Shown one piece after another: positions 1 through 54,577 of a stretch of 64,000 bases of DNA (its first letter is position 1; each line of letters opens with the position of its first letter). A program made the position numbers and the translations under genes. Below the pieces are notes generated by a model. That model ran no database searches and was not told where the DNA came from. It worked only from the letters and a program-made list of their open reading frames with translations. This stretch comes from Medicago truncatula (lineage: Eukaryota; Streptophyta; Magnoliopsida; Fabales; Fabaceae), in NCBI RefSeq assembly GCF_003473485.1, contig NC_053044.1, forward strand, positions 31,066,091 to 31,130,090. Reading direction: 5' to 3'.

Positions 1-73
1 TCAATGTTGAAATCACATACAAGACATTTTACAATCATTAGATTAACCTCATCCGGATCAACTTGATTTGAAA
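1..73 (-). pseudogene. Di19-like zinc-finger exon 2, cut by the window edge
   Basis: On the minus strand this reads VSNQVDPDEVNLMIVKC, nearly identical to exon 2 of the intact Di19-like gene at 14267-16281. The flanking sequence up to about 425 is also a copy of 15600-15905. It is therefore the left-most visible unit of the same tandem array. The rest of the exon lies outside the window, so its state cannot be judged. Confidence 0.55.
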
Positions 74-511
74 CTGAAGTATCTTCTGTTAGGTTCAAAA
101 TGGATCAGAATCCGAATGTTATTTCTAGAATAAGAACTCCAATTTGCATGACAGACAAAGTACGTCTCAAAATTATTAAAAAACCGAAAACGAAATGTCT
201 TACACTGATACATATGCACAAAATCACAGAAAAAGAAATAAATAAATAAAGAAAGAATACGATGCTAAGAAGAATGTGAGGCTACATTCCTGTTTTTTTA
301 GATTGAAATCATCCAAATTCTCTCAATTAGGAGAAAATTTGTTTCAGCAAAGATTTGAAAAGAATTTGGTTTAGAGGCTTTCATGATAATCTTAATCAGT
401 TTAAAAAACTCCATAACAAGGATGGGATCATGCATTAAACTGCAAAGTTGAGTAAAATAGTGGAAAGAATGGGATCATGCATTAATCTGGTAGACTTCGT
501 TTCTGCAGATA

Positions 512-2400
512 ATATCAATTTCCATCGTAGGCAGAGCAACAATCATGATTCAAGTGCTTTATCGCCAGAAGGAATACATTAGAAGATGATAATCATAGCA
601 AATTATCTTGCTCTAAATTCTAAAAAGGATGACATTACTGGTAGATGGTGCTTTAGTTATGATGAAGATTCAATTTTTAGGCAGTTAAAGGATGGTCTCT
701 CTTCTGATATTGATGTTGTTTACGTGGGATCTCTAAAGGTTAATGTTGATAAAAGTGAGCAAGATAATGTTTCCCAGTTTTTGGCGGAATTCAATAGCTT
801 CCCTACTTTTATTCCTTCAGAAATCCAGAAAAAGTTTTATGACGGATTCTGCAAGAACTATTTGTGGCCTCTATTTCATTACATGTTTCATATGTATCAG
901 AGTTACTGCAATGGCTTTGATGGGTCACTTTGGCAGGCTTATGTTTCTGCTAACAAGATATTTGCTAATAAAATTATGGAAGTTTTTAACCCAAAAGATG
1001 ATTATGTATGGATTCATGACTATCATCTTATGGTTCTTCCAACATTTCTACGGAAGCGGTGTTGTTATGTCAGGCTAGGCTTTTTCTTCCATAGTTCGTT
1101 TCCATCCTCCAAAATTTCTATAGATATACTTGTGGGAACAAAAATCTTAAAATCAATGCTTAATGCAGTCATAATTGGATTTCAAACATTTGATTATGCT
1201 TGCCATTTTCTGTCTGTCTGCAGTCGAATTCTTGGCTTGGAATATGAATCCAAAAGGGGTCAAATTTGGATTGAATATTTTGGACGTACGATATTCATTA
1301 AAATATTGCCTGCTGGGATTCATATGGGTCGCATTCAATCCACTTTATATCATCTTTCTGATTTTAACAAAGTTAGAGAAGTCTCCAAACAATTTAAGAG
1401 GCAAAAACTTATTATTGGTTTCGATGACTTGGACATGTTCAAAGGCGTGAGCTTGAAGTTATTAGCCTTTGAACGACTCTTTATACGATGCCCAACACTA
1501 CAGGGCAAGTTGGTATTACTCCAAATTAAAAATCCTCCAAGGAGTGATGCTTGGTATGTTGAGAAAGCAAAGGAGCAGGCATCCACAATTTCCAAAGGAA
1601 TTAATGAAATGTTTGGTTTTCTAGGTTATAAACCTGTCATCATCATTGAAGGTTTTGTTCCTTTCCATAAGAAGGCAGCTTACTACGCTTTGGCCGAATG
1701 TTGTATTGTATATGCGGAGCAGGATGGTAGAATTTGGTTCCATACGAGTACATTGCGTGCAGGTAAGGGTGTTCTAAAATGGACACAACATTAGAAATTC
1801 CTTCCAACTCCCCTCGGATAAGTTCAATTGTTGTTTCTGATTTTGTAGGTTGCTCTTCCTCTCTTAGTGGGGCAATCAGGGTGAATCATTGGGATATAAA
1901 TGTTGTTGTTGAAGCGTTAAAGTTGGCTATCACAATGTCCAATGAAGAGAAACAGTGTCGGCATGAGAAAAACTGCCAATTTGTTAGTTCTCATGATTTG
2001 CTTTACTGGGCCCAACATTTTGATCAAGGCCTAGTTTTCTCGTGTAAGGATCATGGTAAGAAACTTTGCTGGGGTTTCGGCTTTGGCCTGGAGGTCAGAG
2101 TTTTGTCCCTCTCTCCGAATTTAAAGAAGCTGTCTAGAAACTACATTGTTTATGCATATAAAAGGAAAAAATGCAGGGCAATATTTTTAGACTATGATGT
2201 AACAATTGTACCTCATGATCCCATTGTTGCATCCCCCAGTCCTGAGGTCGTATATGTGCTAAACAAACTTTGCAGTAATGTTAATAACACTGTGATTATT
2301 GTCATTGATCGAGGGATGCCTTCATTGATAAATTTTTATTATCAGTGTGAGAATCTTGGTATAGCAGTTAAGCATGGTGGAGATATAAGGTTAGTGTTTT
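512..2400 (+). pseudogene. Trehalose-phosphate synthase class II pseudogene, left arm of palindrome
   Basis: The frame 586-1794 reads as the GT20 synthase domain of plant class II TPS proteins, with WIHDYHLMVLPTFLRKR, QLKDGL, GFQTFDYACHFLS, YESKRG, KILPAGIHMG and FDDLDMFKG in family order. A one-base deletion near 1728 (gatggtagaat, where the other arm has gatggcatgaat) shifts the frame. Synthase and TPP-domain sequence then continues in 1779-2402 (SGAIRVNHWDI, KLSRNYIVYAYKR, FLDYDVTIVPHD). The phosphatase motif has Val where the family has Asp or Gly (DYDVT). The copy stops at a splice-donor-like aag/gttagt near 2391, where class II genes usually end exon 1. The N-terminal ~60 residues and the rest of the phosphatase domain are missing. 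Class II TPS proteins are mostly regulatory in plants; this copy is not expected to give a working protein. Confidence 0.85.
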
Positions 2401-2474
2401 GATTGTGGATTATTTGCAATTCAACTGTTCATCATAAACGGTATGTCAATTATAATTTCAACCACACTTCTTTT

Positions 2475-4117
2475 ATATGCATAAACAATGTAGTTTCTAG
2501 ACAGCTTCTTGAAATTCGGAGAGAGGGACAAAACTCTAAACTCCAGGCCAAAGCCGAAACCCCAGAAAAGTTTCTTACCATGATACTTACACGAGAAAAC
2601 TAGGCCTTGCTCAAAATGTTGGGTCCAGTAAAGCACATCATGAGAACTAACAAATTGGTAGTTCTTCTCATGCCGACACTGTTTCTCTTCATTGGACATT
2701 GTGATAGCCAACTTTAACGCTTCAACAACAACATTTATATCCCAATGATTCACCCTGATTGCCCAACTAAGAGAGGAAAAGCAACCTACAAAATCAGAAA
2801 CAACAATTGAACTTATTTGAGGAGAGTTGGAAGGAATATCTAATGTTGTGTCCATTTTAGAACACCCATGCCTGCACGCAATGTGCTCGTATAGAACCAA
2901 ATTCATGCCATCCTGCTCCGCATTCAAAATACAACATTTGGCCAAAGCGTATTAAGCCTCCTTCACATGGAATGGAACATAACCTTCAATGATGACGACA
3001 TCTTTATAACCTAGAAAACCAAACCTTTCATGTATTCCTTTGGAAATCATGTATGCCTGCTCCTTTGCTTTCTCAACATGCCAACCATCACTCCTTGGAG
3101 GATTTATAATTTGGAGTGATACCAACTTGCCCTGTAGTGTTGGGAACCATATAAAGAGTCGTTCAAAGGCTAATAACTTCAAGCTCACGCCTTTGAACAT
3201 GTCCAAGTCATCAAAACCAATAATAAGTTTTTGCCCCTTAAATTGTTTGGAGAGTTCTCGAACTTTCTTAGAATTAGAAAGATGATTTAAAGTGGATTGA
3301 ATGCGACCCATATTAATCCCAACATGCAATATTTTAAAGAATATCGTACGTCCAAAATATTTGATCCAAATTTGACCTCTTTTGGATTCATATTCCAATC
3401 CAAGAATTCGACTGCAGGCAGACAGAAAATGGCAGGCATAATCAAATGTTTGAAATTTAATTATGTGTGCATTAAGCATTGATATGAAGATTTTTGTTCC
3501 GACAGGTATATCTATACAAATTTAGGAGGATGGAAACGAACTATTGAAGAAAAAGCCTAGCCTGACATGTCAACACCGTTTCCGTAGAAATGTTGGAAGA
3601 ACTATAAGATGATAGTCGTGAATCCATACATAATCATCTTTTGGGTTAAGAACTTCCATAATTTTATTGGCAAATATCTTGTTAGCAGAAACATAAGCTT
3701 GCCAAAGTTACCCATCGAAGCCACTGCAGTAACTCTGATACATAGGAAACATGGAATGAAATAGAGGCCAAAAATAGTTCTTGCAGAATCCGTCATAAAA
3801 CTTTTTCTGGATTTCTGAAGGAATAAAAGTAGGGAAGCTATTGAATTCCTCCAACAACTGGGAAACATTATCTTGCTCGCTTTTATCAACATCAACCTTC
3901 AGAGATCACACGCAAACAACATCAATATCAAAAGAGAGACCATCCTTTAACTGCCTAAAAATTGAATCTTCATCATAACTAAAGCACCATCTACCAGTAA
4001 TGTCATACTTTTTAGAATTTAGAGGAAGATAATTTGCTACGATTATCGTCTTCCGATGTATTCCTTCTAGCACTTGAATCATGATCATTTCTTTCTACGA
4101 TGGAAATTGATATAATG
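2475..4117 (-). pseudogene. Trehalose-phosphate synthase class II pseudogene, right arm of palindrome
   Basis: This inverted copy of 512-2170 reads 4117 to 2475 on the minus strand. Its pieces are 4088-3906 (GIHRKTIIVANYLPL), 3895-3602, 3479-2952 and 2945-2421, in the same order as the plus arm. It keeps the frame where the left arm has a deletion (AEQDGMNLV). It has its own damage: a TAA at 2954-2952 (left arm: gcagcttactac), a break near 3900, and a frameshift between 3480 and 3602. The match to the left arm ends at tatgcatataaaag near 2475. The two copies have therefore decayed separately since the inversion. Confidence 0.85.
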
Positions 4118-5072
4118 TGATAATGTGAATTTGTATGTGTGCCTGTGTGTGTGTGTCTGATGTGATAATCACAAATGGAAAACAATTTTTAATTACCCTA
4201 TTAAATTCTTATTTTCCGTAAAATGAACATTGTGATTAAAATAAGCCAAGAAATTCTATTAAACCTCCCAAGAAGGCCTTTGCATCATCAAGATAGTACT
4301 ACTTCAAGAAAATGGTTACTTGTCCAGAGGATGGACACTTGGAACACATTTCATTGGTCCAATTTACACTTTCTTTTACATGGAAGACAAATAATAATTA
4401 CTTCTAAAAAATGAAGTGAAGAAGGAAGAGGAGGAGAAAACATGTATCGTGTGAAAGCCTTTTTAACGTATCCCTCTAGAAAACTCAATAAGATCAACAA
4501 TTTACTCATTCCATACGATTGATTCGAAGAAAAGTAGATGGGATACAATGAGATATGCCTTCTATTTAGCTGGAATGCCAAGTTGGTTTATATAAGACAT
4601 GATACAATCATAACTTTTCTCAAGGTGAAGCTTAATAAAGCATTAAGCTTTTGTGTGCAAATGCCTAAAAGAATAAATGGTTTCATGCAAATCAATAGTA
4701 TTATTTTCAATAATGCTCCGACCATGAATAAAGCTATTTTGATTTTCAGAGATTACGTAAAACAAAATTGAAGTCTTTGAGAAATAACCTGAGTTCTTTC
4801 TCAAAGACTACGTTGTACCAATCTATTTATCTAATGCCTCACTTACATCAACATAATGACACCAATCAAATGATGTTTAATCCTTGCGACCAAAGAATTA
4901 CAATGTCCTTCTGGTGTGTTTCTTAGATGATGTTCAATCGAAGAATTCCGATTACAATCTTCTTTCAATTTCATTAACAGCTAAGCAAGGACGTTCAATT
5001 TTATAAATTATAACATAAAATACTTCAGCATAAAGTTCCGCTAAGCATAAAATACAAAATCAAGGAGGTCAT
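4118..5072. other. Intergenic: array spacer sequence
   Basis: No gene is visible. 4140-4390 is a diverged copy of 9960-10190; both carry a gt-rich tract, then gattaaaataagc, then a ggttacttgt stretch. This places it as spacer or 5' flank of a Di19-like repeat unit. The rest is AT-rich with no recognisable coding sequence. Confidence 0.5.
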
Positions 5073-5200
5073 ACCATAGTAATTGCATCATAATCTTTTG
5101 AACCGACCTAATGGACGAAAACTTCTAGTCAAAATAGCATACGGGGCATTTTACTAGCGATAGAGAAACTTCATCCAAATAAACATGATTGAACACTGGA
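5073..5200 (-). pseudogene. Di19-like exon 2 remnant
   Basis: Minus-strand reading gives VYLDEVSLSLVKCPVCYFD, matching exon 2 of the intact copy (DSDEVNLLIVKCDACGSD), then a stop. The 3' flank shares the ggaggtcatacc donor region of the other copies. The rest of this unit's coding sequence is not found at the expected spacing; AGO1-like fragments lie upstream instead. Confidence 0.5.
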
Positions 5201-5344
5201 GTGTCTTTTGTTATGTTCAAAATGCATCAGCATCAGCAAGTTATTTCTAGCACAAGAACATTATCAATTAGTATAAATATAAGGATAAATAGTCAGAAAT
5301 TACTACAAATCATTGAAAGTGGAACTTACATCATACTGATGATT

Positions 5345-6168
5345 GTCTTTTTCAGGTAACTCGACAAAAGAAAAGGTTTGCCAAAACAACACACTTCTGG
5401 TCATAACTCCCTTTTCCAAGGATAAGGGGAAACCTTAGTGATGATTTACTTTGTGGAGGAGGGGCATGAGTCCCCTAAGAATGAACTTGCCTCAGATTGG
5501 AAGAGGAGAGCTGATGGACCCGGTGGGGCCAAAAGATCTGATGGTCAACAGAAGAATCCAAGAGCTGATGGACTCGGATGCTGGTTACGTCGGGGGGCTG
5601 CCATATTAATTAATGAACTATGTCATGGCCACTAGCAGCACCTGCACCACCATCATTTCCACCTCTGACACCTTTATATCCACGGTCTCCTTGCTGAGAA
5701 GACCCTCCTCAACCCCGAGAGCAGTATGCACCATACTGTTGTTGGGGCTGAGGAGGGCCTTCTCAGCAACAAGGCCGTGGATATGAAGGTGGCAGAGGTT
5801 TCTACGGTGGTGGCAATGACCATGACATAGATCCTTCATATGGCGGCCCACCGAGGTAACCAGCACCCGAGCTGCACCAAGCTACCTCAGTTCCATCTGC
5901 ACCCTAATCCAAGGAAAACTCATCTTTCTAGCCACCATAAGTGTCTGAAGTTGAATAGTATCTGAGGCAAGTTCATCTTCCAATCACCATGTCCACCACC
6001 ACCAAAACCATCACATTCATCGCCATAATTTCCGCGTCCAACTTGCGGAGCCCTGCCTCGACCTCCTTGAGGTCCTCCCCCTTATTGATATCCAACACCC
6101 CGATATACTTCAACTTCTTGTTGAGGCGGTGGACTCCTCTGCTGACCATCAGATTTATTCCAAACCAT
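5345..6168 (-). pseudogene. Scrambled ARGONAUTE1-like 5' fragment, copy 1
   Basis: A minus-strand start at 6168 reads MVWNKSDGQQRSPPPQQ, then VEVYRGVGYQ, a stop, and a Gly/Arg-rich run (GGRGRAPQVGRG). This is the N-terminal region of plant AGO1-type proteins. The far end (5437-5345) reads RFPLILGKGSYDQKC, the conserved step before the ArgoN domain. Between them lie inverted pieces. On the plus strand 5756-5900 gives GPSQQQGRGYEGGRG, then PSYGGPPR, a stop, and PAPELHQATSVPSAP; PELHQAT is an AGO1 hallmark. 5750-5590 on the minus strand repeats that block, and 5500-5560 on the plus strand reads RADGPGGAKRSDGQQ. Stops and rearrangements rule out a functional protein. Confidence 0.7.
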
Positions 6169-6517
6169 ATTGAAAGGTGCACACACACAACACAACAGAC
6201 TAAATTACTATATAATTCATAAAACATTAACATAAATCATACACCGGTAACATAGCCAATGTAATCAGATCAATCAATCAGATCAATCAACAACTATGAA
6301 AAGAAATTATCAAAAACCAACACTTAAAAGTGAAATCAATTTCCACATGAACTGCATATGAGAGAGCATATAAATAATACGAACTAAGTAATATGCAAAA
6401 CCATCATCAGAAAAGTGAAATCAATGTGTACATGAACTATGAGTTCCTCAATTCAGTTCTTTTTCTTCATACCAGCATACAACCATTACGACATATAGAT
6501 GGAGAAAAGGGTCATAC
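6169..6517. other. Intergenic, no gene seen
   Basis: Short stretch upstream of the AGO1-like fragment. The motif tgaaaggtgcacacacac next to the start is shared with the second AGO1-like copy (near 12470), so the duplication included the 5' flank. Confidence 0.5.
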
Positions 6518-6699
6518 CTTTTTGCAATGGAAATGTTATTTGCAACAGCAACGTCTAAGGAAGCATATTTCTTGTCCCTAAATGGTGGAAAAATTGAATA
6601 AGATCGACATTGGTTCTTGTTTGTTGTTTTCCCAGGAAGCATATTTCTTGCATGTAATACCCAATCAACATTTGAGACACTGTTTTTCTGAAGATTCCA
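6518..6699 (-). pseudogene. Di19-like exon 4 remnant
   Basis: It aligns with exon 4 of the intact gene (14667-14899) from the tag/gg acceptor to the aaaaag/gtatgac donor. The frame is broken by stops and indels, though the end of the exon is still recognisable. A decayed unit of the same array. Confidence 0.5.
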
Positions 6700-8152
6700 T
6701 ATCCGCTATTTAGAGAGTATACATTGTTTTATCAACATAATGAATTGAGTTAGATATGAATCAAAGGCTACGTTGGAACCGAGCTATGTTACAATTAAAT
6801 CACAAGATAAGTTACAGATACCTATCTCCTTATGCCTTCATTTACATCAGAAAGTTCAAGTTCCATTGTTGAAGAAGAATAGCTCACATTTTATTTTGTG
6901 CAGTCTTTCATTCTTATTCACTCACAAACAATCACTTTCACAAGCAGACTTTTTCTTATGCAACAAGGCGTGAAAAACTGAAAAGATGTTTTGGTTTGAC
7001 GGGTTACAATCGAGTAAGAGGTAGCTACAAACCTATATACATAAAAAAAACCTCCCAGATGAAGAACACTTGGAACTTGAACAATTTTCACTAAATTTTT
7101 TGTCAAATATGGAGTAGCAGACAAATAACACAATTACGTCATTAACACTGAATTTTGGCATTAGGTTAAACAATTTTCAATGAAGTAACCAAAAATTTTG
7201 GCATCTTTAGGCAAAAGCATTATGCTTCTTGCGGGGAAAATCAGAAACTGAAAAAGCAGAGGGATAAGAAAAGTCATGGTTCAAACTCAAATTGAAAGAA
7301 AAACAATTACCATAGTAAAAGTGATTGTTGCTGTCATCATTGGTCATCTTCACCATTTACCACTGACCATCGCTTCATCTACTTATTCTTTTGATTATTC
7401 TTTGCACTCTTCTCATAATTACAAAAAATAATTTTATTCTTACAAAATAAATTTGGAAAAATAAAATCCCCTCAGTTTCTTATAAAATTCAAAGTTTGGA
7501 ATGAAAAATTTCACATTCAGAAAGACAATACTGATACTGAGTAAAATTCTTTCTACATTACCCTTTAAATTATCAATCAATATAGTAATTATAACAATAG
7601 TAGGTTAATGAAAAGCTTAGACTTATATCACAAGATTTAGAGAAACCATCTGAGTTGTATCTCAAGTCAATAAATACAAGCTATTTAAGTGGGTGTATGT
7701 ACTAGCATACACTATGTGACTCCCTTAATCAAATTTAAGATATAATTTTGGAAGAACAAATTAGGGAGGATAAGAGAATGAAATCATATTATCATCTACG
7801 CAAACCTCTTGTATCTTTCAAAGCAACCTTAAAACAGAAAGAATATTAGAGAAATAAAAAACCGAAGAGCGCGAACATAAATGTCTTGTTTCTTATATGT
7901 GATGTCATCATGAATGGAATTTAGACACTATTGATAATCTCTCACTGAATAAAATCTCCATGATATCATGTAGATCCACAAATAATTGAGAAATGTAATA
8001 TAAAGTACAATAATTTGGAAATCTATGGTAACACCATTAGGTACATAATTTTCCATACGACAAGAAACAATATTTTTATTAAATGTAGAGAACAATGAAT
8101 GAGTAACAATGACAATAAATTCAGATAGACATATCCAAGAATAGGATTATAC
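6700..8152. other. Intergenic: Di19-like 5' flanks and AT-rich spacer
   Basis: 6880-7140 resembles the promoter and start region of the intact unit (tcactcacaaacaatcact and the gcgtgaaaaactgaaaag stretch near 16270-16340 and 13040-13100), without a usable exon 1. 7160-7330 resembles 13240-13420. The remainder is AT-rich with no coding signal. Confidence 0.45.
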
Positions 8153-8714
8153 CTTTTTCCAATGGAAATGCCTTTTGCAATGGTATCATCTGAGGCATTA
8201 CTGATGGTATCTTCATCTGAGAAAAACTTGTTGGAGCTTGGAACATTTATGGTTGTGCTGAGATGGTGACAAGTGAATCCAAAGTTGGTTCATTTGTTGT
8301 TTCCCCAAGAAGCATGTTCCTTATCATGCAATGCCGCCCAATGAACAATGGAGGCACTGTTTTTCCGCGGGTTCCAATTGCGCTATGTAGAAAGTACACA
8401 TCATTATATTAAGAAAATGAATTAAGTTACATAAGAATCCAATACTCCTACCCGGAAGCTGAGCTATTTTACAATTAAAACATAAATCACAAGATAAGCA
8501 ACATATACCTTTTGCAAGCTTGAACTCTACGGCACCCTGATTGCCTCCTCCCCCACATTTTCATGGCTCACAGGACATATCTGATATAGGGACATTGGAG
8601 CAGTCATTCAAATATCAAATTTCAATTATATCTAAGTACTATACCTGTGTTAAATGTTTAGAAATCTTTTATTTCATTTTTCCCTTAGTTTTTAAGATCA
8701 ACACAGTGCACTAT

Positions 8715-8743
8715 ATCATATATATATATATATATATATATAT
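8715..8743. repeat. TA microsatellite
   Basis: Run of about 13 TA units inside the Di19-like pseudogene intron. Confidence 0.9.
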
Positions 8744-9408
8744 GTATTTTTGGTTCAATTTCATTAGAAGCTAAGTAAAGACATCAATTTATAAAACCAA
8801 GCCAATAAGTTTTTCTGAACATAAATTATAAAAACCAGGAGGTCATGCCATAGTATATGAGTCGTATGTCTGATCTTCCGAACGGTCACGTAGTGCAGAA
8901 ACTTCAATTACAAAATTGAATGTGAGGCATTTTGTAGCAGATGAAGAATCACCATCAAGATCAATAAGATTGAAGATTGAATTGCCTCCTGTTAGGTTCA
9001 AAATAGATTAGCATCAGCAAAATAAGAGCAGTACACCGAGAATAATAAAACTCTATTTATGCATGCATGTCTTACACCGATACAGATGCACAAGCTTACA
9101 AAATATCAACAAGCAACAAAAAATAATTGTGCTAAAGCCTTCCTTTCCCTTATTTGTGTGATTTAAATCATTGAAAGTTCTCTAAATTAGAGGAAAGTTT
9201 GTTTTCGCAATTTTTTTTTTTTTTGAAATAGGTTAATTTTATAGTCTCTAATGATAATCCCCATCAGGTTAGAGAATTTCACAACAAGGAAAAGGTTTAA
9301 TTTTTCACCTCCCTTTTCCTCCTTTCTCTACCATCCACATACACAACAAACCATCATTGCATATGCAATCAATACTCAGGAGGACATCCTGATCAATTCA
9401 GAAAAATT

Positions 9409-9597
9409 CCCAATCTTAAGTTCAGAGATCCTATCACACAAAAAATCATAGATCAAACAGCACTTATTAATCTTGTTTAATTTATAAAGTACCGAAAATC
9501 ACACAAAATCATAGATCAAACAGAAAAAAAAAACTCCCCCAATCTTAAGTTCAGAGATCCTATCACACAAAATCATAGATCAAACAACACTTATTAA
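9409..9597. repeat. Local direct duplication, ~127-bp period
   Basis: 9409-9470 and 9536-9597 both read cccaatcttaagttcagaga, then tcctatcacacaaaatcat, then gatcaaaca. This is a recent small duplication in the intron between e2 and e1 of the broken Di19-like copy. Confidence 0.8.
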
Positions 9598-9870
9598 GAA
9601 AAAGAATACATTTTTTCACACACAGATTGTAAAATAAAATATAAAAAAACATCTTCATAAGTGCTGTCATTAATCAACCTGATTCCCAATAAGATAGTCT
9701 TCTCGGCCACGAGATCTGATCCTTCTCAGCAACCTTATGCGTTCATTGAAATCAGATAGTTCAAGATTCATTGAAGCCAAATTTTCAAAATCTGAAGAAT
9801 CTTGTGGCACCACAGTAGGCACTGGTGTAGAAGAAGTGCCCACAATGTTTTCACTCACCGCACAACTCAC

Positions 9871-11149
9871 TCAACCTTTTTCTCAAACATAAAGGCATAA
9901 AAAAATGAAAAGTTTTAACATTTGATGAGGTAGCTTATAAACAACAAAAAACCTCCCAATGAGGGTGTGTGTGTAAATTGTGATAAGCACAAATGGAAAA
10001 CAATTTTTAATTATTGTATTGAATTCAAATTTTCCATAAACTGAACATTGTGATTAAAATAAGCTAAGAAATTTTGATCACCCTTGAAACCAAGATGGCC
10101 TTTGGGATATAATACTCACTTCAAGGGATCGGTTACTTGTACAGATGAAGTACACTTGGAATACATTCATTGGTCAAATTTACAGTAATAATATTTTCAA
10201 AATTTGAGTTGCTTGAGACAGAGAATCATTGCGTACCTTGTTCATTAAACTAACCCAAACTACTACACAATATTGTAATGTAACTCCAAATGATTTTTCT
10301 TTTCCCTGGCGTGGGGGAAAAGTAAAAACTGAAAAGGCAGACGGAGAATAAAAACCATGGTTTAAACTTGAAGGGAAAGAAAAAAATGAAGTGAAAAACA
10401 TGTACCATAGTAATAAAGATTTACTTCTCGAGAGAATGTGATTGTGAACCATACCACAGGAAGATATTAACCAGTTAGGTAATTCCGGCAATAAATAGAT
10501 TGTCACACCACTACACAAAGTTTGGAATGAAAGTTTTCATATTCAGAAAAACAACAACGATAAATATTAATGCGTAAACCTTCTTTACACAATCCTTTAA
10601 ATTGTCAATTTAGTAATTATATATCATAGTAGGTTGTTCAAAGCTAGTCTTGGATCATAATATTTAGATAAACCATCTGAATTGTATCGCAAAATTCAAC
10701 ATCATTATATATCATAGTAGGCATCTTTCTTGCCATGTAATGTGAAATCATTCGTGAGTTTCAATTCCGTTACGTAGAAAGTATACATCGTTATATCAAC
10801 ATAATGAATTGAGTTAGGTATGAATCAAAATACTAACAAAGTACTATACCTGCGTTAAATGTTAAGGAATGTCTTCTTTTAATTTTTCTAGTTTTTGAAT
10901 AATTGATTGTATCATGCTCATCTTTTTATTAAGATCGGGACATGTGCACTATATCAAGCTGATACATAAAAGTTTCCTTCAATTTCATTAGCAAGTAAAT
11001 TGAATGATATAAATTATAACAATAACATACTAGTTATCAATCAATCAAGAAATGTAGGAAAATGAAACAAAACCTAGCAAAAACTAATACTTCAGTGATA
11101 AGTTCTGCTAAGCATAAATTACAAAATCCATGAGGTCATAATCTTCTTA
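9871..11149. other. Intergenic: array spacer
   Basis: 9960-10190 duplicates 4140-4390. 10480-10700 is similar to spacer at 7500-7700. No coding sequence is supported. Confidence 0.45.
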
Positions 11150-11245
11150 GCGGTCCCGGAGCGCGGAAACTTCAATGTTAAAATAAAATACATGGCATTT
11201 TACTACCAATAGAGAAACTTCATCCATATCAACTTGATCGAGTGT
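11150..11245 (-). pseudogene. Di19-like exon 2 remnant
   Basis: The minus strand reads DQVDMDEVSLLVVKC, then HVFYFNIEVSALRDR, matching exon 2 of the array. Only the first zinc-finger Cys remains; the second is replaced (HVF). It has no intact partner exons. Confidence 0.55.
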
Positions 11246-11559
11246 CCACTCTTTCAACTTGATCGAGTGTCCACTCTTACGTTCAAAATGGATCATCATA
11301 AGGAAGTTATTTCTACCACAAGAACTCCATTTTACATGGCATATAAAGCAGCTCTTAAAATTAAAGACCAAAAATAAATGTCTTACACTGATACATAAGG
11401 ATGCACAAGCTCACAAAATACCAACAAGAAAAAAAATGGTGCTAAAGCCCAATTCCTTCCCTTTATTTGTGTGACTTAAATCATTACAAATTCTCTCAAT
11501 TTGGGGAAAAGTTGTTTTACAATTATTTTAAAAAGGTTAGGTTCAGAGGCTTTAGTGAT

Positions 11560-12464
11560 ATGCCCCATTAATTTGGAGGGGGCAGGCTTGTAGTATACAT
11601 ACACTTATGGCCATCATAATTGGAAAGTCTCTTTCCCAAGTATGAATCATGATACAGCCTCACAAGCTGCTCCATAATAGCACAGATCACACCTCTATAA
11701 GTCACTTCTGGAGTAATTGTTACCTACGCAACCAAGAGTAGAAATACTAGCAATAAGTATAATTAAAAGGATAAACAGTAAGTAATTATACAAATTATTG
11801 AAAGTGGAACTTACATCATAGCTGCCCTTTCCAAGGAGAAGGGGAAACCTCAATGATGATTTACTTTGTGGAGAAGAGACATGCGTCTCTTAAGAATGAA
11901 ATGCCATTTGTCCTAGATTCTGTTCAACTTCAGACACCTCTGGTGGCTGGGAAAATGAACTTGCCTCAGATTGGGGAGAGGTGGAGGAGACACGAAAACT
12001 TCATAGGCTGTAGATGGAACTTAGGTTGCTTGATCCAGCTCGGTGCTGGTTACATCAGTCTTCCACCATATGGAGAAACTACAACATGGCCACCGCCAGC
12101 ACCTGCACCATATATTGATGCTGGAGGTGGCCAAGACTTAGTTCCTTCATATGGCAGCCCACCGAGGTAACCACCACTTTAGCTGCATCAAGCAACCTAA
12201 GTTCCATCTGCACCCTAACCAGTTTTCGTGTCTCCTCCACCTGCTCTCCAATCCGAGACAAGTTCATCTACCCACCAGAAATGTCTGAATTTGAATAGGA
12301 TCTGAGGCAAATTCATCATCCCAACCACCATAACCATCATTTTCCCCTTCTTGATGTCCAACACCTCTATATACTTCAGTAACCTGATGAGGTGGTGGAC
12401 TGTTCGACTGATCATCAGAACTTTTGGCACCATCAGGTCCATCAGTTCTCTTCTTCCTCACCAT
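11560..12464 (-). pseudogene. Scrambled ARGONAUTE1-like 5' fragment, copy 2
   Basis: The start at 12464 reads MVRKKRTDGPDGAKSSDDQ, then PPPHQVTEVYRGVGHQ, the N-terminus of AGO1-type proteins. An exon end at about 11850 reads FPLLLGKGSYD with a gtaag donor. The next exon (about 11735-11560) reads [29 protein letters not shown] and YDGHKCMYT, the ArgoN domain. Between them, 12090-12230 reads AGO1 in the opposite sense (PSYGSPPR, LHQAT), and 11940-12060 is the inverted copy of 12160-12290. Stops interrupt every frame. Copies 1 and 2 share structure and 5' flank, so the fragment was rearranged before being duplicated with the Di19 units. Confidence 0.75.
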
Positions 12465-14266
12465 ACTGAAAGGTGTACACACACACACACAACACAACAG
12501 ATAATCCATTAACAAAAATCAAACAACAAATATAAAATGAAACAACCCATTTTGCTCTCTATATTTATTTGTGCACAAGAAAGAAAACATATATCTCCTC
12601 CCGATATTTTCTCTCACTCTCAACAAGCTCTAAATGTTTTTGTTGCGTTGCTACTTGATGGGATGAATGAAGTGGTGGAAATGAACTTGCTATTTATAAG
12701 AGAGGTAAACTATAGTTTCTTACATGCAACAAGCCACTTGTCTTCCATGCAAAACACCAAGTGTACAACATGTCATCACTTGTATCTCATGCATCTTGCA
12801 ACTTGTCAATGCATACAACTGTCCACTTTGCCTTACATGAAAAATGCAACTTGTCTTACTTGCACCTTGGACATGTATCTTGTTACAAAATTGGCTTTAC
12901 CAGTTACAATATTGGGCTTGGATCATCATTTGGGCAAATTTCATTCATAATCATGGGCTTAAATCACAATTTGAGCCCATATCATACGCAAAATTATCAT
13001 GTTTTCTTATGTGCAATTCTTCATTGTCACTCACTCAACAATCACTCTGGCACGCAACCTAACTAACTTTTTCTCAGATTACAAGGCGTAAAAACTGAAA
13101 AAGCTTTTTTTGGTTTGATGGGTTACAAGGTAGAGGTAGCTACTTACATATATAGATATAAAAGCTCCCGAACACATTTATATTGGTCAAATATACACTA
13201 AATTTTGTGCTACTTTGACTAGCACACAAATAATACAATTACTTCAATGACACTGAACTTTGGCATCATTAGGCTAACCCAAATACCAACACAAATTTTT
13301 GGCATCATTACGCTAAATGGTTTTGTATTGTTTTGTTTTCCTAATTGCGGGGAAAAGCAGAAACTGAAATGGAAGAGGGAAAGAAAAGCAACTACCATAG
13401 TAAAAGTGATTGTTGTTGTCATCATCGACCATCTTCACCATTTGACTACAAATTAAATGACGTATACGTGAATTTTAACCACAATATTTTTTTTCTTCTT
13501 CTCAGCCAAAAATTAATGTTGTTCTTATTAAATAAATTTGGAAAATTAAAAGCCCCTCAGTCTCTTTACAATTGTCACTTTTTCTAAGAAATTTATTCTT
13601 ATTTAACTACAGAAATTTCAAGGTTTTTATTTATTATGATGTTATCTACTAACTCAAATTTTTCTAATGACCATCTTTAATGTTGTCTCTCCTTTCAATC
13701 ACTTATTTCATCCATAACACTTCAACTTGAGACCTTGCTTAAAGGATTTAAATCCAATTTCACTCAGATCCTGTTTGAGAATTTCCAAAATATGTACTTA
13801 AGTTTAAACTTATTATATTTTGTTGGTTGGTGGAGTGGTCTCATCGTTTCACTCTATACCTATAGTGGTTTCAAAAGAATATTGATTTATTGCGCCAAAA
13901 AAAATATAGATTTATAGTCAAGTTTATGGTAGAACAAAGTATTTGATGAAAAATTGAGTGGAATCAAATCAGCTAATAGTTTATATGACTCCCTTGATCA
14001 AAGTTAAGATATAATTTTGAAAAAATAAACTAGCAAGAATGAACAAATAGGAAATATCTCGTTTTAGTCCTGCATAAAATCTGAGAAGCTGATTTCAGTA
14101 TCTCACACATAAAGAAAAAGTCATTTAGTAACTCAAAAGTGAATATTTTTCTGTTGGTATTGCAACAGAAAGAAAAACACAATGCCTCTTTTTACAAGCA
14201 TCGTCAAAACTATCAAAACTATCTGAAGATATAATTAATAAAGCAGTTCCTCGCAAATGCGCCTAT
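12465..14266. other. Intergenic: repeats and Di19-like flanks
   Basis: 12480-12500 is an AC microsatellite. 12700-12890 is a run of imperfect caacttgtc/catgcaac words that keeps a long chance frame open. 12990-13110 resembles the 5' region of the intact Di19-like gene. 13220-13420 resembles 7170-7330. No gene is supported. Confidence 0.45.
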
Positions 14267-16281
14267 CTATTCTAAGGACAAAGTTGACATAAGCAATTCC
14301 TGAGAAAAATCAGCCCTGTTACTTCTCTCTTGGACATCCAATTCATCACTGGTATCCATTGCATCTGTCGCAATCCTACAAACATAAAGAAAAAAAAAAC
14401 TAAAATCAATACAGCAAAACACCAAAATTTCTGTGTTGGTTGTGTATAGGAAGATACTTTTCGTAAACCTTGTTTCAATAACTAATTTGAAAAAACACTA
14501 CAATATACCTTATTAATGTGTATAAAGTACTCAAAATCAATGCAGAAAATAGTTAATAGAGAATGTTTGGAATGTATTACAGGTAACCGCTTTAGAATTC
14601 AGATATTGCTAGAAATAAATAAACATGTTCTAAGAGACGAAGAGTATAGACTGCAAAGGATCATACCTTTTTGGAATGGATGTGTCTTCTGCAATGACAA
14701 CATCTGAGGCATTGCTGATGGTATCTTCTTCATCTGAGAGCATATCATTCAAGCTTGGAAGATACACATTGTCCCTAGACGCTGGCAAAATTGAATCAGG
14801 CACTGGTTCATGTTTGTTGGGTTCCCAGGAAGCATCTTTCTTGTCATGCAATTCCCAATGAACATGTGAGACTCCGTTTCTCCGAGGGTTCCAAATCCCC
14901 TATGTAGAAAGCATACATCGTTATATCAGCATAATGAATTGGGTTATATAAGAATCAAATACTTCTATGCAGAAACTAAGCAATTTTACAATTAAAGCAC
15001 ATAAATCACAAGATAAGTTACAGATACCTTTTGTGAGATTTGGAAGATTGAGTTCTGCACCATCCTGATTGCATCCTCCCCTAAGCCTTTATTGCACGCA
15101 GCACAAATCTGATATAGGAACAGTGAAGCAGTCACTCAGATACCAATTTTCAATTATAACTAAGTACAATACCTATGTTAAATGCTTAGAAATGTCTTGT
15201 TTCAATTTTCCTTAGTTTTTGACTAAAATGGTTGCTTCATGCTCATCTTTTTATTAAGATCAGGACAAGTGCACTACATCAACCTGATATAGAAATTTTA
15301 ATACAATACCTATATTAAGCAAGGACATTCATTTTTACAGATTATAACAATGTCAATAATCCAGTTATCATTCAATCAAGAAATATCGGAATATGAAACC
15401 AAATCTAACAAAAACTCAAAGAAATACTTCAGAAATAAGTTCTGCTAAACATAAGTTATAAAATTCAGGAGGTCATACCGTATTATATGCATCATAATCT
15501 ACTGAACGGTCACGGCCAATTGAAACTTCAATGTCGGAACCACATGCATCACATTTTACAATCAATAGATTAACCTCATCCGAATCAACTTGATTTGAAA
15601 CTGAAGTATCTTCTGTTAGGTTTAAAATGAATCAGCATCAGAATGTTATTTCTAGAACAAGAACTCCAATTTGCTTGACATACAAACTACGTCTCAAAAT
15701 TAATAAAAAAGCGAAGAAAAAATGTCTTACACTGATACATATGCACAAGATCAAAAAATACCAACAAGAAAGAAAGAAAGAAAGAAAGAAAACGATGCTG
15801 AAAAGGAGAAAATTTGTTTCAGCAAACATTTGTAAAGGATTTGGTTTAAAGGTTTTCATAATAATCCCATTGAGTTTTAAAAACTCCATAACAATGAAAA
15901 GGTTTAATTTTTAACCTCACTTTTCCTTCATTATATCCAAATTAACAACAAACTTTCAGGGTCCATTATTCAATCCATACTCAGGAGGACATCATTTCTA
16001 AGGTAAATTGAAGACTTGACATATAATCAATCTATTCTATAAAATACATCCAAGAAGAACAAAATTGATATATCATACAGAACATAGTAATCACACACAT
16101 ACATAAATATTATTAAAATCAAATATAAAAAACAACCTTTCTCATCCACCGAAATACTGTGATCGTCAACCTCATTCATCATGCGAATATCGAAAACAGG
16201 AATATCTTGTGACACCTCAGTAGGTGTTGTTGAAGATGAAGCTCCAATGTTGTTTTCCTCTGTGCAGTTCGTCATTGTCAC
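14267..16281 (-). CDS. Di19-like protein (dehydration-induced 19 family), intact copy
   Basis: Minus-strand exons: 16281-16137, 15600-15479, 15108-15028, 14899-14667, 14375-14267. All have GT..AG borders, phases agree, and the product is 229 residues, near the usual length of the family. Di19 proteins are small nuclear stress-response zinc-finger factors. Exon 2 holds KCDACGSDIEV (first finger), exon 3 ICAACNKGLGEDAIRMVQ (second finger), exon 4 the linker with HEPVPDSIL (family: APDPLL), exon 5 the ending ERSNRADFSQELLMST (family: R..FVQ.LLLSTI). Both Cys pairs remain but the His pairs expected after each are absent, so zinc binding is doubtful. The start could also be the second ATG at 16275. 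Family assignment is by motif order and exon pattern, not a search; transcription is unknown. Confidence 0.65.
15773..15799. repeat. GAAA microsatellite
   Basis: About six GAAA units in intron 1 of the Di19-like gene. Confidence 0.85.
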
Positions 16282-20452: not shown

Positions 20453-21540
20453 CTATTATTAAAGGAAACCGTAAAAATATTTACTACTAATATAAGATAT
20501 TCATGATACAATATTTAGTTAATAAAATGTTTGATATGATATTTCACTCTTTTACTATTGGTTCAATGAACACAATTTTCCCTGCTTTCATTTACCTTTG
20601 TTGTCTAGAGACTATAAACAGTTTAGGGCTTATCTTTTACAGGGACTCTCTTTTGTAAATATGTTCAAGCTTTTTTAAAAATAGAGTAAATTATACTCCT
20701 CTCTTTTTAAAAATGATTGAATTACACTTCCCTCCTCTTTTATGTTAAAATATATATTCCCCTCCTCTCTTATTGAAAACATATTAGAAAATATTTCACT
20801 CCCCTCCTTTGAGAGAAGTTTGAATTACATTCCCCTCCCCTCTTAAGTTAAAATCTACGCTTTAGTCCCTTAATAACTTTTTTTATTTCTAATAATCTAG
20901 CAAAAAAATAATCTAACACACTTCAAAGAATAATAGCATTGTGGGTTCATTTTAATATAATCAAATTTTGAATATAATACACAACCTTCTCTATTTTTTA
21001 TTCACAATTTCATTAACATATAGTTTTAAACCCTATTATAAAATATGAAACAACCTAAAATAAATTTAAAATATGTGAAAAATTATTAAATTCGATTAAG
21101 TATGGTTATTTAAAAGTGAATTTTATACTCTAAATTATAAAATTAATAACAAAATATTTAAATTTAATTATCATTGACATTTAGATTATAAAGAAACGAA
21201 TTTATATTTTTTAAATGGTGATTCAAAATTAAGATATATTATAAAAATATTTATTTATGTTAAAATAGATTAAAGTGTAGTCCATATTTATTTATTAAGG
21301 GAGGGGGTTGTAATTCAAGCATCTTATAGGGGAAAGGAGTATAAATTTTAATTGTCGATGGAGGGGAATGTATATTTTAACATAAGAGGAGATGTGAGTG
21401 TAATTTAAGCATCTTTGAGGGGAGAGGAGTGTAATTTACTCTAAAAAATATGGACAATTTTAACAAAAGAGTTGACTTTTTAAAAGAGACTTTGAAACTC
21501 TTTGTATATTCGAGGCTAGGTTTTATCCGAGTTAAGATCA
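20453..21540. repeat. Direct duplication unit B, interrupted by a long-TIR element
   Basis: Second copy of the block described at 19826-20452. It is interrupted at 20683-21442 by a different inverted-repeat element, so the two insertions happened after the duplication. Confidence 0.7.
20683..21442. mobile_element. Long-TIR non-autonomous DNA element (760 bp)
   Basis: The left end, agagtaaattatactcctct, pairs with the reverse complement of the right end, agagtaaattacactcctct. Pairing continues for roughly 85 bases (ttatgttaaaatata, cattcccctcc). No coding capacity. The flanks are A-rich and no clean target duplication can be fixed. Confidence 0.7.
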
Positions 21541-26449: not shown

Positions 26450-27439
26450 CAGTAGAAACTCTTTAAATTAATACTCGGTAAATTAATAAACTCTCTAAAA
26501 TAATAAATTTGTCCGGTCCCGACTTGGACCAGTGTAAAAAATTGAATAATTCGATAAAATAATAAGATAATAATTTTTTGGGAGATCCCTTTATAATTTT
26601 CGGTCCCAAAAAAATCATAAATTAATAATTCATAGAAACTGAAAAAAAAAATATTACACTTTGTTGAAATATGATTCAATAGTTGTTTGTTTTCCTTTAA
26701 AGTTCAAGTCTGTTTGAGGGTACAAGAGTTTCATTGTATCTCTTGCCTTCTGCAAAATTAATTCTCCTGTAATATTCACACGTTCTTGATGCTGTAGAAA
26801 CCACTCATAAACAACCTTCTCCATGTCAGGATATTTTGCTGGTTTGTGTCTTTTGATCTCCGCTCTTCCCTTTTCTATTTCAACAGAGAGATAGTCATTT
26901 GACCGCTTAAGTGTGTTTGATATTGTTCCTTGACTAACTTTCAACTGAAATTTTCCCTCAAGCCATCTCTGCAAGTCTTTTTGTGTGCTTGCAGGATTAT
27001 CTCTCTTGTACTCGCACAACTCCTTACGTATTTGATCTGACATAGTTGATTTTGCAACACCTTTTAGATGAGAAGCCATCTCGTGAGTGAGATATGGTTT
27101 GAATACTTTTAACACATTCATGTAATTTATATATGCCAAACTTGCTTAAGAATACATTGAACATTCCACTTGTTTACATTTACTATACACTTCAAAAGTC
27201 AAAAGTCATATTTCCAATGGATATGAATACAATATTTATTAATTTACATTGAGTCCCAAGATTTGGTGCAACGTAATTCCAAGAGACGTAGACTAATTTG
27301 CCTTTTTGTTTGGTATGTACAGTATAATTACTTAAAAACTCTTTAAATTAATAATTATTAATTTATCGATAAATTAATAACTCTCTAAATTAATAAATTT
27401 CTCCGATCCCAACATTATTAATTTATAGAGTTTCTATTG
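26450..27439. mobile_element. Pogo/Lemi1-like DNA transposon, internally deleted
   Basis: The left end, cagtagaaactctttaaatt, pairs with the reverse complement of the right end, caatagaaactctataaatt. It is flanked by TA on both sides (26448-26449, 27440-27441). The ends match the Emigrant/Lemi1 pattern known from Arabidopsis and Medicago. Subterminal attaataa/ctctctaaa words are repeated at both ends. At 990 bp it is shorter than an autonomous pogo element and carries a single minus-strand frame. Confidence 0.8.
26654..27139 (-). CDS. Truncated pogo-type transposase: CENP-B-like DNA-binding region plus PIP-box tail
   Basis: 161 residues. Residues ~30-65 read SDQIRKELCEYKRDNPAST, then QKDLQRWLEGKF and VSQGTISNTLKRS, a helix-turn-helix. 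Residues ~100-135 read KYPDMEKVVYEWFLQHQE, then VNITGELILQKA, the CENP-B/Tc5-type second HTH. The DDE catalytic domain is absent. The protein ends QTTIESYFNKV, which fits the PCNA-interacting pattern Q-x-x-I-x-x-Y-F known at pogo transposase C-termini. This looks like an internal deletion that joined the two ends in frame. A start at MSDQIRK is also possible. Whether it is expressed is unknown. Confidence 0.7.
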   Translation of the reverse strand: MAYINYMNVLKVFKPYLTHEMASHLKGVAKSTMSDQIRKELCEYKRDNPASTQKDLQRWLEGKFQLKVSQGTISNTLKRSNDYLSVEIEKGRAEIKRHKPAKYPDMEKVVYEWFLQHQERVNITGELILQKARDTMKLLYPQTDLNFKGKQTTIESYFNKV

Positions 27440-40985: not shown

Positions 40986-41467
40986 GTTAAATATGTTTTT
41001 AGTCCCTATAAATATATCAACTTTTCGTTTTAGTCCCTCTAAAATTTTCCTTCAACTTTTAGTCCCTATAAAATTTTCAATCTTCACTTTTGGTCCCTCT
41101 TTTGAAGTAAACTCATATCTAGAATTCATATTTTTTAATAAAATTTTTCATAAAAATTCAAAATATTATAAGAATCACTTCAAATTTTTTTTTGAATTTT
41201 TTAACAAATCATGAATTTAATATGAATTTTTATATATTTTACGGTTAAAAATGCGTATTTAATTTGTGTTTTGTTTAAAAATTCTAATTTTTTTAGAATA
41301 TTTTACACATTTCTGTACAATTTTATTAAAAAATACAAAAATTAAATTAAAAATAGGTACCAAAAGTAGTAATTGAAAATTTTATAAGGACTAAAAGTTG
41401 AAGGAAAATTTTAAAGGGACTAAAACGAAAAGTTGATATATTTATAGGGACCAAAAACATATTTAAC
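40986..41467. mobile_element. Legume 'agtccct' MITE (MULE-like)
   Basis: Left end gttaaatatgtttttagtcc and right end reverse complement gttaaatatgtttttggtcc; pairing continues over ~120 bases (tatatcaacttttcgtttta; ttttccttcaacttttagtc). It lies between T runs, which may be the target duplication. 482 bp, non-coding, about 0.9 kb upstream of the LTP gene. Confidence 0.85.
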
Positions 41468-51276: not shown

Positions 51277-51949
51277 TTGTTTATTTCCATAATGATGTAT
51301 TTCACTTCATCATTTGATACTTAAAATAAATTAAAAATTGTTTACTTAGACTAATAGAAAATCATATATTTACAAATAACAAAAAAAAAGACCGAGTAAG
51401 AATCCTAGAGTTAGAGTTAGGGGAACCCTAGGGCAACCTTTGGGTAACTACTCGATGTTGAGTATGAATGAAACACAATTAATCCTTCAATTTTGATTTT
51501 GATGACAACAAGGTATAAGAATATAATTAATCCTCTAATATTTGTTTCACGTGTAAAAAGTCATTGAATCACATGACTACAACTTTAATTGTAATTATTT
51601 TTGTTACAATATGGTCCCTCCATTTCTTCAAAAAAAAAAAAACAATATGGTCCCTCCATAATTATTTTTTTTTGGCTCCGTCACCATCAATTAATGATAA
51701 TTATAATGTTTCCCTTTCAACTTAAAGGAAGCTTTTAGATAAATGATGATGTTTCCCTTTTTTTCCTTCTAATTGCACGAGGTGTTCCTCTCAATCAATT
51801 GGATTATACGCCTGCAAATATAAAATGATGTAACTTAGAAATCTCAACATTAAATAGAGTAGCTATAAGAAAACGATATATATTTGATTTCAATCACCAG
51901 AAATAACTACTACTTTATATGATCTTAGGTCTCTCAATCTAATTTTCCA
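51277..51949. other. Upstream region of the first P450 gene
   Basis: 51605-51660 repeats aatatggtccctccat twice around an A run. A tatatatttg stretch at about 51876 may be the core promoter. No other gene. Confidence 0.4.
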
Positions 51950-54577
51950 ATGGTTGTGGAAATATATTTCATAGTTATATGTCTACTCACTTTGAGTTTA
52001 GCTTTTCTCCTCACGAAATTTCTCTCAAAAAGTAAAATTAAAAATGTTCCAAAAGGATCTATGGGATATCCTCTCATTGGAGAGACATATGGTTTTCTTA
52101 AAGCACTGAGGCAAGACAAGGGCTCTGAGTGGTTAGAAGAAAGGGTAGCTAAATATGGTCCTGTCTTCAAAACTTCCATATTGGGTTCCCCTACTGTGTT
52201 TATTATTGGTCAACAGGGAAACAAGTTTGTTCTTGGTTCCTCACATGATGTTCTTTCTAGTAAGAAACCTCCAACACTTCAAAGGATTTTTGGAAAACAA
52301 AGCCTACTTGAACTCACAGGATCAAGGTACATATTCCTCATTGATGCAACTTAAATTGTTGATTTAAGTAGATTAGATTATTTGTCAAAAATCCTTATAT
52401 ATAACGATCAAGGTTTTATAAAACGATTTGTGATTGCAATTGTGGCCGCAACCTTAACGATCGAGGGTTTATAAAACGATATGTGACACCCCCTCACACT
52501 CAGGATTGCACATCTGAAGCGTGAACATAAATGACGGGTGGTCCGATAACGGAAACCTGATAACAGGTGGTCCAAAGAAACGCGAAGAGGCTCTGATACC
52601 ATATTAGAATGGTGGTTGGGCCTAACACAACCCCACAAAACCGGCCTTTGAGGTGAGGATTGCCCCCACTTATAAACAATTTGTCAGGCCAATTCCTGAC
52701 CGATGTGGGACTCTTAACATTAGTTAGTTACACTAGTTAGATAGTACTCTAATTAGTTAGTTAGTTACACTACTAGTTGTTTTTCTCATTTGCAAAAAAT
52801 ATCTTATGTATCCCTTGATGTGATTTATTTTATCAATATAATTTTAAATTTTACTTTTCTCTTATCGATGTCATCTATCAAGAATAGCAATATGATATTA
52901 GAATATGTTTTATTCTATCAAGAATAGAAAAATGAAAGATCGCGATGCAACTGTGATCATAATTTAAAACCTGTGTTTATTTTTTGTGTAGGTTCAAGTT
53001 GGTTAAGGGGGAAATGCTGAAATTCTTGAAACCTGAATGCCTTCAAAACTATGTAGAAAAGATGGATGAATTAGTGAAAACAGTATTATTGAGAGAATTG
53101 AAAGAGAATAAAACAATTGAAGTTGTGAGGTTGATGAAGAAACTGACCTATGATATGGCTTGCAATATATTGTTTGACATAGATGAACAAACAAGGGAGG
53201 TTTTGTATGAAGATTTTATCTTAGCATTTAAAGCAATTCATTCTCTTCCCATCAATTTCCCTGGAACCTCACTTTGGAAAGGCCTAAAGGCTAGAGAAAG
53301 AATTGTGGACAAAATACTTCCAATTATGAACAAAAGAAGGGAGGAATTGTCAAAAGGAGTTCTAAGCTCTACTAACGATATGATTTCATGCCTTCTTGCA
53401 ATAAGGGATGAAAATAATCAACCTTTAGATGAAGAAATGATTGTTGGCACTTTTATTTTTATATTTGTTGCAGGTCATGACACATCTGCTACTCTTATGA
53501 CCTTGATGATATGGAAGTTATCTAGAGATCAAGAGGTTTACAATAATGTTTTAGAAGGTAATTCTAATTTGTTTTTTAGGTTGTGCTATTTATGTGCCAC
53601 TGTATCATGGATTTAAACTACAATTGCTGTCGCATTTACGCTACGAAACTTTATATTGCGGGAAAATATGACTGATGTGGTTGTAATGCCATTGCGGAGA
53701 CTTCAATCTCTGTTATATTTGAGATGCAGTTGCAAGGCTTAATTTAAAACCTAGATTCCTTACTCTAAAATAAAAAAGGATTTAATACTTCTTTCATGGT
53801 TTTGTCGATAAATTGTATATTTTTTGGATTACATTGTTGCTAAATACTTTTATGCAGAACAAATGGAAATCATAAAGCAAAGGGAAGGAAATGAAGACAG
53901 GCTAACATGGGGAGAGATACAAAATATGAAATACACATGGAGAGTTGCTCAGGAGTTGATGAGAATGATCCCTCCTTTGTTTGGGGCCTTTAGGAAAACA
54001 ATCGAAGATACTAATTACGAAGGATATGACATACCAAAAGGGTGGCAGGTAGGTGATGTTTCTTCCAAGGTTTTAAATCGCAGTCACGATATTTTATATT
54101 ATTGGACAATCGTACTCCAATGCATAATGTCTCCATCGCATCTGCGCTCTTATTGTGGATACATCAATAACCTTGACGTCGCAGTTCAGATTGCAGTCAC
54201 ATACCTCTTTTACTGGCATATTTTTTTGGCCTAACTTTAATTTTATATTGGTTTCATGTTTTTAGGTATATTGGGCATCATGTGGAACTCATATGAACAA
54301 AGATATATTCGAGAATCCTGAAAAGTTTGATCCATCTCGTTTTGAAAATCGAACCAAGTCAATTCCACCCTTTTCTTACATCCCATTTGGTGCAGGGCTT
54401 CACTATTGCATAGGAAATGAGTTTGCTAGGGTTCAAACCTTAACCACTATTCACAATTTTGTGAAGACATATGAATGGTCTCAAATGAACCTAGAGGAAA
54501 CAATTACTCGTCGACCAATGCCATATCCATCCTTGGGTCTCCCAATTAAGATCAAACCTAGATGCAATATGTCTTAA
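51950..54577 (+). CDS. Cytochrome P450, CYP85 clan (CYP716/CYP718-like), copy 1
   Basis: Exons 51950-52326, 52992-53557, 53858-54048, 54266-54577; GT..AG, correct phase, 481 residues. N-terminal membrane anchor (VICLLTLSLAFLLTKFL), then VPKGSMGYPLIGET. I helix FVAGHDTSATL (exon 2), K helix ELMR in [14 protein letters not shown] (exon 3), PERF-like FDPSRFEN and heme loop [15 protein letters not shown] with the Cys ligand (exon 4). His stands where most P450s have Arg before the Cys; the same is seen in CYP707-type enzymes, so it does not mean inactivity. The C-terminus [16 protein letters not shown] resembles CYP718. This clan oxidises triterpenes, brassinosteroids and other isoprenoids; the substrate cannot be told. 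ER-bound. Convergent with copy 2. Confidence 0.92.
52485..52720. repeat. Dispersed repeat in intron 1 of P450 copy 1
   Basis: Contains ggctctgataccatatta, ggtgaggattgcccc and accgatgtgggactcttaac, a wording I recall as dispersed across legume and other dicot genomes. Ends are not fixed. Absent from the longer intron 1 of copy 2. Confidence 0.45.

Follow-up and report, generated by a model that had tools for sequence, protein, structure and literature searches.

A decayed inverted duplication of a class II trehalose-phosphate synthase exon in Medicago truncatula, with the predicted capacity to fold as hairpin RNA

The stretch of the Medicago truncatula genome analysed here, 64,000 nt of contig NC_053044.1 (positions 31,066,091 to 31,130,090; hereafter the window), carries near its left end a long inverted repeat derived from a trehalose-phosphate synthase (TPS) gene. 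Comparison of the first 8 kb with itself by blastn returned a minus-strand match between 506-2164 and 4119-2470 (E = 0), with 92.65% identity across 1,660 columns, 111 mismatches and 3 gaps, and a repeat search recovered the same inverted repeat as blocks of 1164, 435 and 30 nt. The similarity of the two arms ranges from 80 to 98% per 100-nt block, with the lowest value coming from the outer end, which is gapped. A listing of inverted matches in the window gave 21, among which this repeat ranks first in both length and score, and the runners-up by length span 877 columns at 64% and 624 columns at 88%. The original prediction, made from the letters of the DNA, had described two TPS copies at 512-4117 that face each other tail to tail across a loop of about 0.3 kb, and the arms and the 305-nt loop delimited here bear out that layout (Table 1).

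The assignment of both copies to TPS is likewise confirmed, and the arms derive from exon 1 of a class II TPS gene. The Pfam family Glyco_transf_20 (PF00982) scored 372 bits on the left open reading frame (ORF) and was matched by all four tested frames of the two arms, and the longer left-arm frame matches solved trehalose-phosphate synthases. In the left copy, PF00982 is followed by the first 71 of the 235 positions of PF02358 (Trehalose_PPase), which is the domain order of the class II TPS family, Glyco_transf_20 and then a trehalose-phosphatase domain. From about 5.8 billion proteins searched, 2779 relatives emerged and the best 120 were listed; the first of these, P0001 (647 residues), matches the query along its full length at 88% identity, and its frame stays open as far as the same intron stop. 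The left frame from 469, MGSCINLVDFVSADNINFHRR, is similar to the P0001 sequence MGSFINLVDLVSADNINF, and its ATG lies 37 nt outside the left arm, the left copy being larger than the arm. Exon 1 ends at a donor, AG/GTTAGT, near 2389/2390 (placed by eye), with the intron beginning at about 2390. Left exon 1 crosses the loop and ends at about 2389, which makes the loop part of the left copy; the right arm spans from codon 13 to a point 225 nt short of the end of exon 1. The presence of the splice donor argues for a genuine gene copy, and a retrocopy origin was ruled out because exon 1 continues into an intron. With the intron kept and the reading frames broken in both arms, the locus has the features of a duplicated, non-processed pseudogene. 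Searches of the window by tblastn, with the complete P0004 (chickpea) and P0006 (Gastrolobium) sequences and C-terminal portions of two chickpea proteins as queries, revealed no downstream TPS exon, and no further TPS piece in the window was convincing, all matches outside 469-4119 having E values of at least 0.3.

Table 1. Coordinates of the inverted repeat, the left TPS copy, the intron assumed by a public protein model and the flanking repeat units
Feature	Position	Strand	Basis
Left TPS copy, pseudogene (ATG 469 to exon 1 donor)	469..2389	+	Frame similarity to P0001; PF00982, PF02358; stops 580, 1764; 1-nt deletion near 1729
Left arm of inverted repeat	506..2164	+	blastn minus-strand self match, 92.65%
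Intron assumed by P0002	1763..1848	+	P0002 mapping; end points by arithmetic
Loop, 305 nt: remainder of exon 1 (start of phosphatase-like domain) and first ~80 nt of left-copy intron	2165..2469	+	PF02358 on ORF 1767-2402; similarity to P0004 ends at 2390 and to P0006 at 2378
Right arm: partial inverted duplicate of left copy, pseudogene	2470..4119	-	blastn; 5 stops; 8-nt and 2-nt gaps
Flanking repeat unit	1..422		76.5% like 15528-15897; significant homology ends at 422, just before TPS segment
Flanking repeat unit	4147..4368		79% like 9965-10184; homology begins 28 nt past right arm

Each arm has accumulated lesions of its own. In the left arm, codons 38 and 433 are stops and one nucleotide is missing near 1729; in the right arm, stops occupy codons 87, 153, 199, 215 and 405, and there are gaps of 8 nt and 2 nt. 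No lesion is common to both arms, all seven stops and three gaps being private to one arm (the arm that lost bases at each gap was judged by eye against the P0001 frame). That highly alike arms had each acquired separate stops and frameshifts was part of the original prediction and is upheld; its description of both copies as pseudogenes holds insofar as both frames are broken, but the left arm is less decayed than it implied, with an open frame of 403 codons (583-1794) that follows the TPS frame until the deletion near 1729. The inter-arm substitutions, 110 of the 111 of which fall in 546 comparable codons, hit codon positions 1, 2 and 3 at 39, 34 and 37 sites, with a dN/dS of 0.86. Thus, both copies decayed almost without constraint. 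Transitions (57) and transversions (54) are about equal in number. The longest identical run between the arms is 100 nt (P = 0.08) and the differences are compatible with random scatter; gene conversion between the arms is not needed to explain them and left no clear sign. The Kimura two-parameter (K2P) distance between the arms is 0.071, which would date the duplication to about 3 to 6 million years ago at plant substitution rates of 1.08e-8 or 6.1e-9 per site and year, and to an earlier time if gene conversion had occurred. Insertion of a mobile element with a target-site duplication was considered and set aside, as no word of at least 5 nt is shared in the ~30 nt outside each end.

The source of the duplicated exon was placed in a tree of 31 proteins, drawn from 242, and the two arms. 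The arms form one clade (100/98), which is joined next by P0001 (100/100) and then by chickpea P0004 (100/99), and all four lie inside the legume TPS9-like part of the tree, the base of which is weakly supported (74/98). The stem shared by the arms and P0001 is long (0.34; 100/100), indicating that this legume gene was evolving fast before its split from P0001. After P0001 and P0002, a model of the left copy considered below, the nearest relatives among the best 120 of 2779 are P0004 at 69% and others at 65% or less. With P0001 and P0122 (chickpea TPS9) as further queries, the best 120 of 4465 and the best 120 of 3944 matches were listed. Apart from the left arm itself, no protein labelled M. 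truncatula is among these three sets, in which labels are incomplete. The protein listing was clustered at 90%, with few species labels per cluster, names cut and many rows unlabelled; the M. truncatula TPS9, which presumably must be expected there, is absent by name, and for this reason the species labels are taken to be incomplete. The level of identity is a firmer guide than the labels, since a protein hidden in a cluster would differ by at most ~10% from the row shown. The longest run of residues that five clover-type TPS9 proteins (P0135, P0136, P0138, P0146 and P0165) share with the arms is 15 for the left arm and 13 for the right, and the corresponding runs identical to P0001 are 43 and 31.

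The locus has a strong predicted capacity to form a hairpin. The predicted RNA fold of 469-4119 has a free energy of -2709 kcal/mol, or -0.74 per nt, as against -0.21 to -0.25 per nt for five pieces of the window of the same length. In this fold, the right arm pairs with 1558 of the 1659 bases of the left. Helices of 21 bp or more without interruption number 24 and together make up 1070 bp; the longest measures 138 bp. As modelled, the locus would have the layout of a small interfering RNA (siRNA) locus of the GmIRCHS type, a long inverted repeat with a short loop that can fold as RNA. AATAAA occurs on the plus strand within the locus at 967 and 3822. By arithmetic, G-U wobble would preserve pairing at 32 of the 111 differences if the transcript ran rightward and at 25 if it ran leftward; selection for hairpin pairing was considered, and these counts give no clear excess of wobble-tolerated changes.

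Taken together, we judge it likely, with a probability of roughly 0.8, that this locus is a gene fossil in M. truncatula that is able to make hairpin RNA and that, if transcribed, would act mainly on itself, if it acts at all. The proposed course of events begins with an inverted duplication, adjacent to the original, of exon 1 from a legume class II TPS gene that was evolving fast and belonged to the TPS9 kind; the pattern of changes shows that both copies then decayed independently at a near-neutral rate. A transcript entering from the left and passing the loop is predicted to form a stem of about 1.65 kb. Dicer-like enzymes of plants cut such hairpins into 21-24-nt siRNAs, and those produced here would be expected to direct mainly methylation and self-silencing of their own locus.

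The order of these events was examined at 539 amino-acid sites compared with P0001, of which 26 are changed in the left arm only, 42 in the right arm only and 28 in both arms, with three sites at which all three sequences differ. Chickpea P0004 allowed 25 of the 28 arm-shared changes to be apportioned, 9 to the arm lineage, 9 to the P0001 lineage and 7 undecided. At the time of the duplication the reading frame was probably open, as judged from the absence of any stop or gap shared by the arms; decay well before the duplication is disfavoured for the same reason, but a short period of it may have come first. Several observations weigh against parts of this account. The case for an open frame rests on an absence, and prior decay predicts only about 1 to 3 of the 10 lesions to be shared (arithmetic from ~9 to 19 shared against 71 later changes), so that the absence of shared lesions is not decisive. 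The nine changes of P0001 span its whole branch and the nine of the arms only the time before duplication; the arm lineage may therefore have been faster already. Additionally, the excess of right-only over left-only changes (p = 0.068, not significant) makes residual constraint on the left copy possible. Constraint may have been lost at the duplication itself or somewhat earlier. As to self-silencing, perfect hairpin RNA (hpRNA) transgenes methylate and silence themselves and mismatches in the repeat prevent this (PMC9263138); by analogy, the 7% divergence of the arms, which lies between the perfect and the mismatched cases, may weaken it. C-to-T changes between the arms are enriched at CG/CHG sites (24 of 263, against 33 of 954 at CHH; odds ratio 2.8, p = 0.0004), unlike transversions (8 of 263 against 40 of 954), but eight other duplicate pairs, pooled, are also C-to-T enriched (54 of 312 against 182 of 1933; odds ratio 2.0, p = 9e-5), with odds ratios of 2.25 to 6.2 in four cytochrome P450 duplicate blocks and 0.98 to 2.06 in four other repeat pairs. 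Methylation could thus account for the pattern, which does not prove an effect of the hairpin, and a hairpin-specific methylation footprint was set aside because other duplicates in the window have the same enrichment.

The self-acting fossil has to be weighed against readings in which part of the locus retains or has gained a function. The left copy might still code for protein, a splice at the intron of Table 1 and a start at the ATG at 586 skirting both stops and the frameshift to give the public model P0002. This M. truncatula-labelled model of 576 residues maps exactly to the left copy (identical over 393 residues starting at 586 and over 184 tail residues, one of them overlapping at the junction, with the stop at 2400-2402), the assumed intron has GT...AG ends, and both the 403-codon open frame and the smaller number of amino-acid changes in the left arm would accord with a coding copy. 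Against this stand the even distribution of changes over codon positions and the inter-arm dN/dS of 0.86. The intron removes the second stop of the left arm, offsets the frameshift and deletes a stretch kept in other TPS proteins, including P0001 and P0004, and the product carries just the first 71 of the 235 positions of the phosphatase-like domain. Gene predictors, moreover, can invent introns that rescue reading frames. We therefore regard a coding left copy as unlikely; P0002 is the left half of the decayed hairpin and may be a mis-annotation.

The original prediction had gone further in suggesting that the hairpin could act on intact class II TPS genes. Its folding capacity stands, and a long, near-perfect predicted stem in the layout tied to chalcone synthase (CHS) silencing at soybean GmIRCHS (PMC13051633) would suit a locus whose siRNAs cut or methylate such genes in the same plant. 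The sequences do not support such an action, however: after P0001 the next relative listed falls to 69%. As no intact M. truncatula protein above ~70% was found among the matches listed, in which labels are incomplete, regulation of intact class II TPS genes appears unlikely from the sequences. Single siRNAs could match conserved TPS stretches, such as the 15 shared residues, but broad class II TPS silencing is unlikely, and the wobble counts do not clearly favour pairing. Active silencing in trans is accordingly a quite improbable explanation. A further idea is that siRNAs of the hairpin silence an open, P0001-like sister in accessions or related species that still carry it. In crosses the locus would then be a silencer or a factor of incompatibility, like the Tpd1 hairpin of maize; we give this idea a slim chance. 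An inverted-duplication route to new microRNA genes (MIRNA), including one from two adjacent inverted pseudogenes, has been described in plants (PMC3237417), and the stem could be an early stage of it, but the window contains no Rfam family at gathering score, the whole 1.65-kb stem is retained, and no segment is clearly more identical than the rest, all of which makes a nascent MIRNA very unlikely. An artefact of assembly or cloning, with no inverted copy in the plant itself, is hardly credible: inverted repeats are prone to misassembly, but 111 differences and the private lesions separate these arms, and the right arm is therefore no false copy of the left. The self-acting gene fossil remains the reading we prefer.

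The surroundings of the hairpin are themselves repetitive. A degenerate array of repeat units occupies 1-16000, with matching blocks 67-95% alike, and surrounds the hairpin. Sequence before 422 belongs to such a unit, since homology to neighbouring units runs to that position, and the TPS promoter may be absent upstream of the left copy. Tried as an empty site, the matching place in the next unit, 9388-9965, could not be aligned with the edges of the TPS segment, and no insertion point could therefore be read. Elsewhere in the window, two cytochrome P450 copies lie in convergent inverted orientation at 51847-54575 (+) and 56186-59906 (-), with four blocks 79-88% alike and a Pfam p450 match on the one piece tested. 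Imperfect palindromes of ~300-880 nt with self-matches of 64-77% are found at 5573-5871, 11906-12312, 20648-21471 and 40986-41467, and a fragment of a Tc5/CENP-B-like transposase, recognised by Pfam HTH_Tnp_Tc5 and HTH_ABP1_N, lies at 26657-27145 (-). A scan for bacterial promoters and terminators was set aside as inapplicable to a plant.

Loci of this kind are already known; judging by the titles and opening lines of abstracts in the literature searched, the TPS member appears to be undescribed, and trehalose goes unmentioned in a review of small RNAs in legumes (PMC3707012). Two pairs of adjacent, inverted paralogous pseudogenes in rice, with 83% and 96% identity, are hairpin-capable and have small RNAs (PMC2708354). 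For the rice pair of reported length, small RNAs were mapped to a stem of 185 bp (PMC2708354), whereas the TPS hairpin, at ~1.65 kb and 92.65% identity, is described here from its DNA. The maize Teosinte Pollen Drive locus Tpd1 is likewise a long endogenous hairpin RNA locus, the 22-nt siRNAs of which act against a proven target, Tdr1, and drive pollen abortion (PMC11390486). Both the siRNAs and the proven target set Tpd1 apart from the TPS hairpin. A natural inverted gene repeat is also formed by Arabidopsis PAI1-PAI4, the copies of which differ from the TPS hairpin in having near-identical genomic partners. PAI1-PAI4 is a case of dense methylation associated with an inverted repeat (PMC9263138). 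The closest likeness in layout is to soybean GmIRCHS, the candidate for the I allele of chalcone synthase silencing, which is also a tail-to-tail inverted repeat of one pseudogene in a legume, is capable of forming double-stranded RNA, and consists of a 1,087-bp inverted repeat with a 78-bp spacer (PMC13051633). It differs from the TPS hairpin, which has no close target among the matches listed. The TPS locus offers a clear case, in a model legume, of a gene that died around its own inverted duplication, and it allows a natural hairpin of ~7% divergence to be tested directly for its ability to feed the silencing pathway. Should siRNAs be found, it would provide a further legume example beside soybean GmIRCHS.
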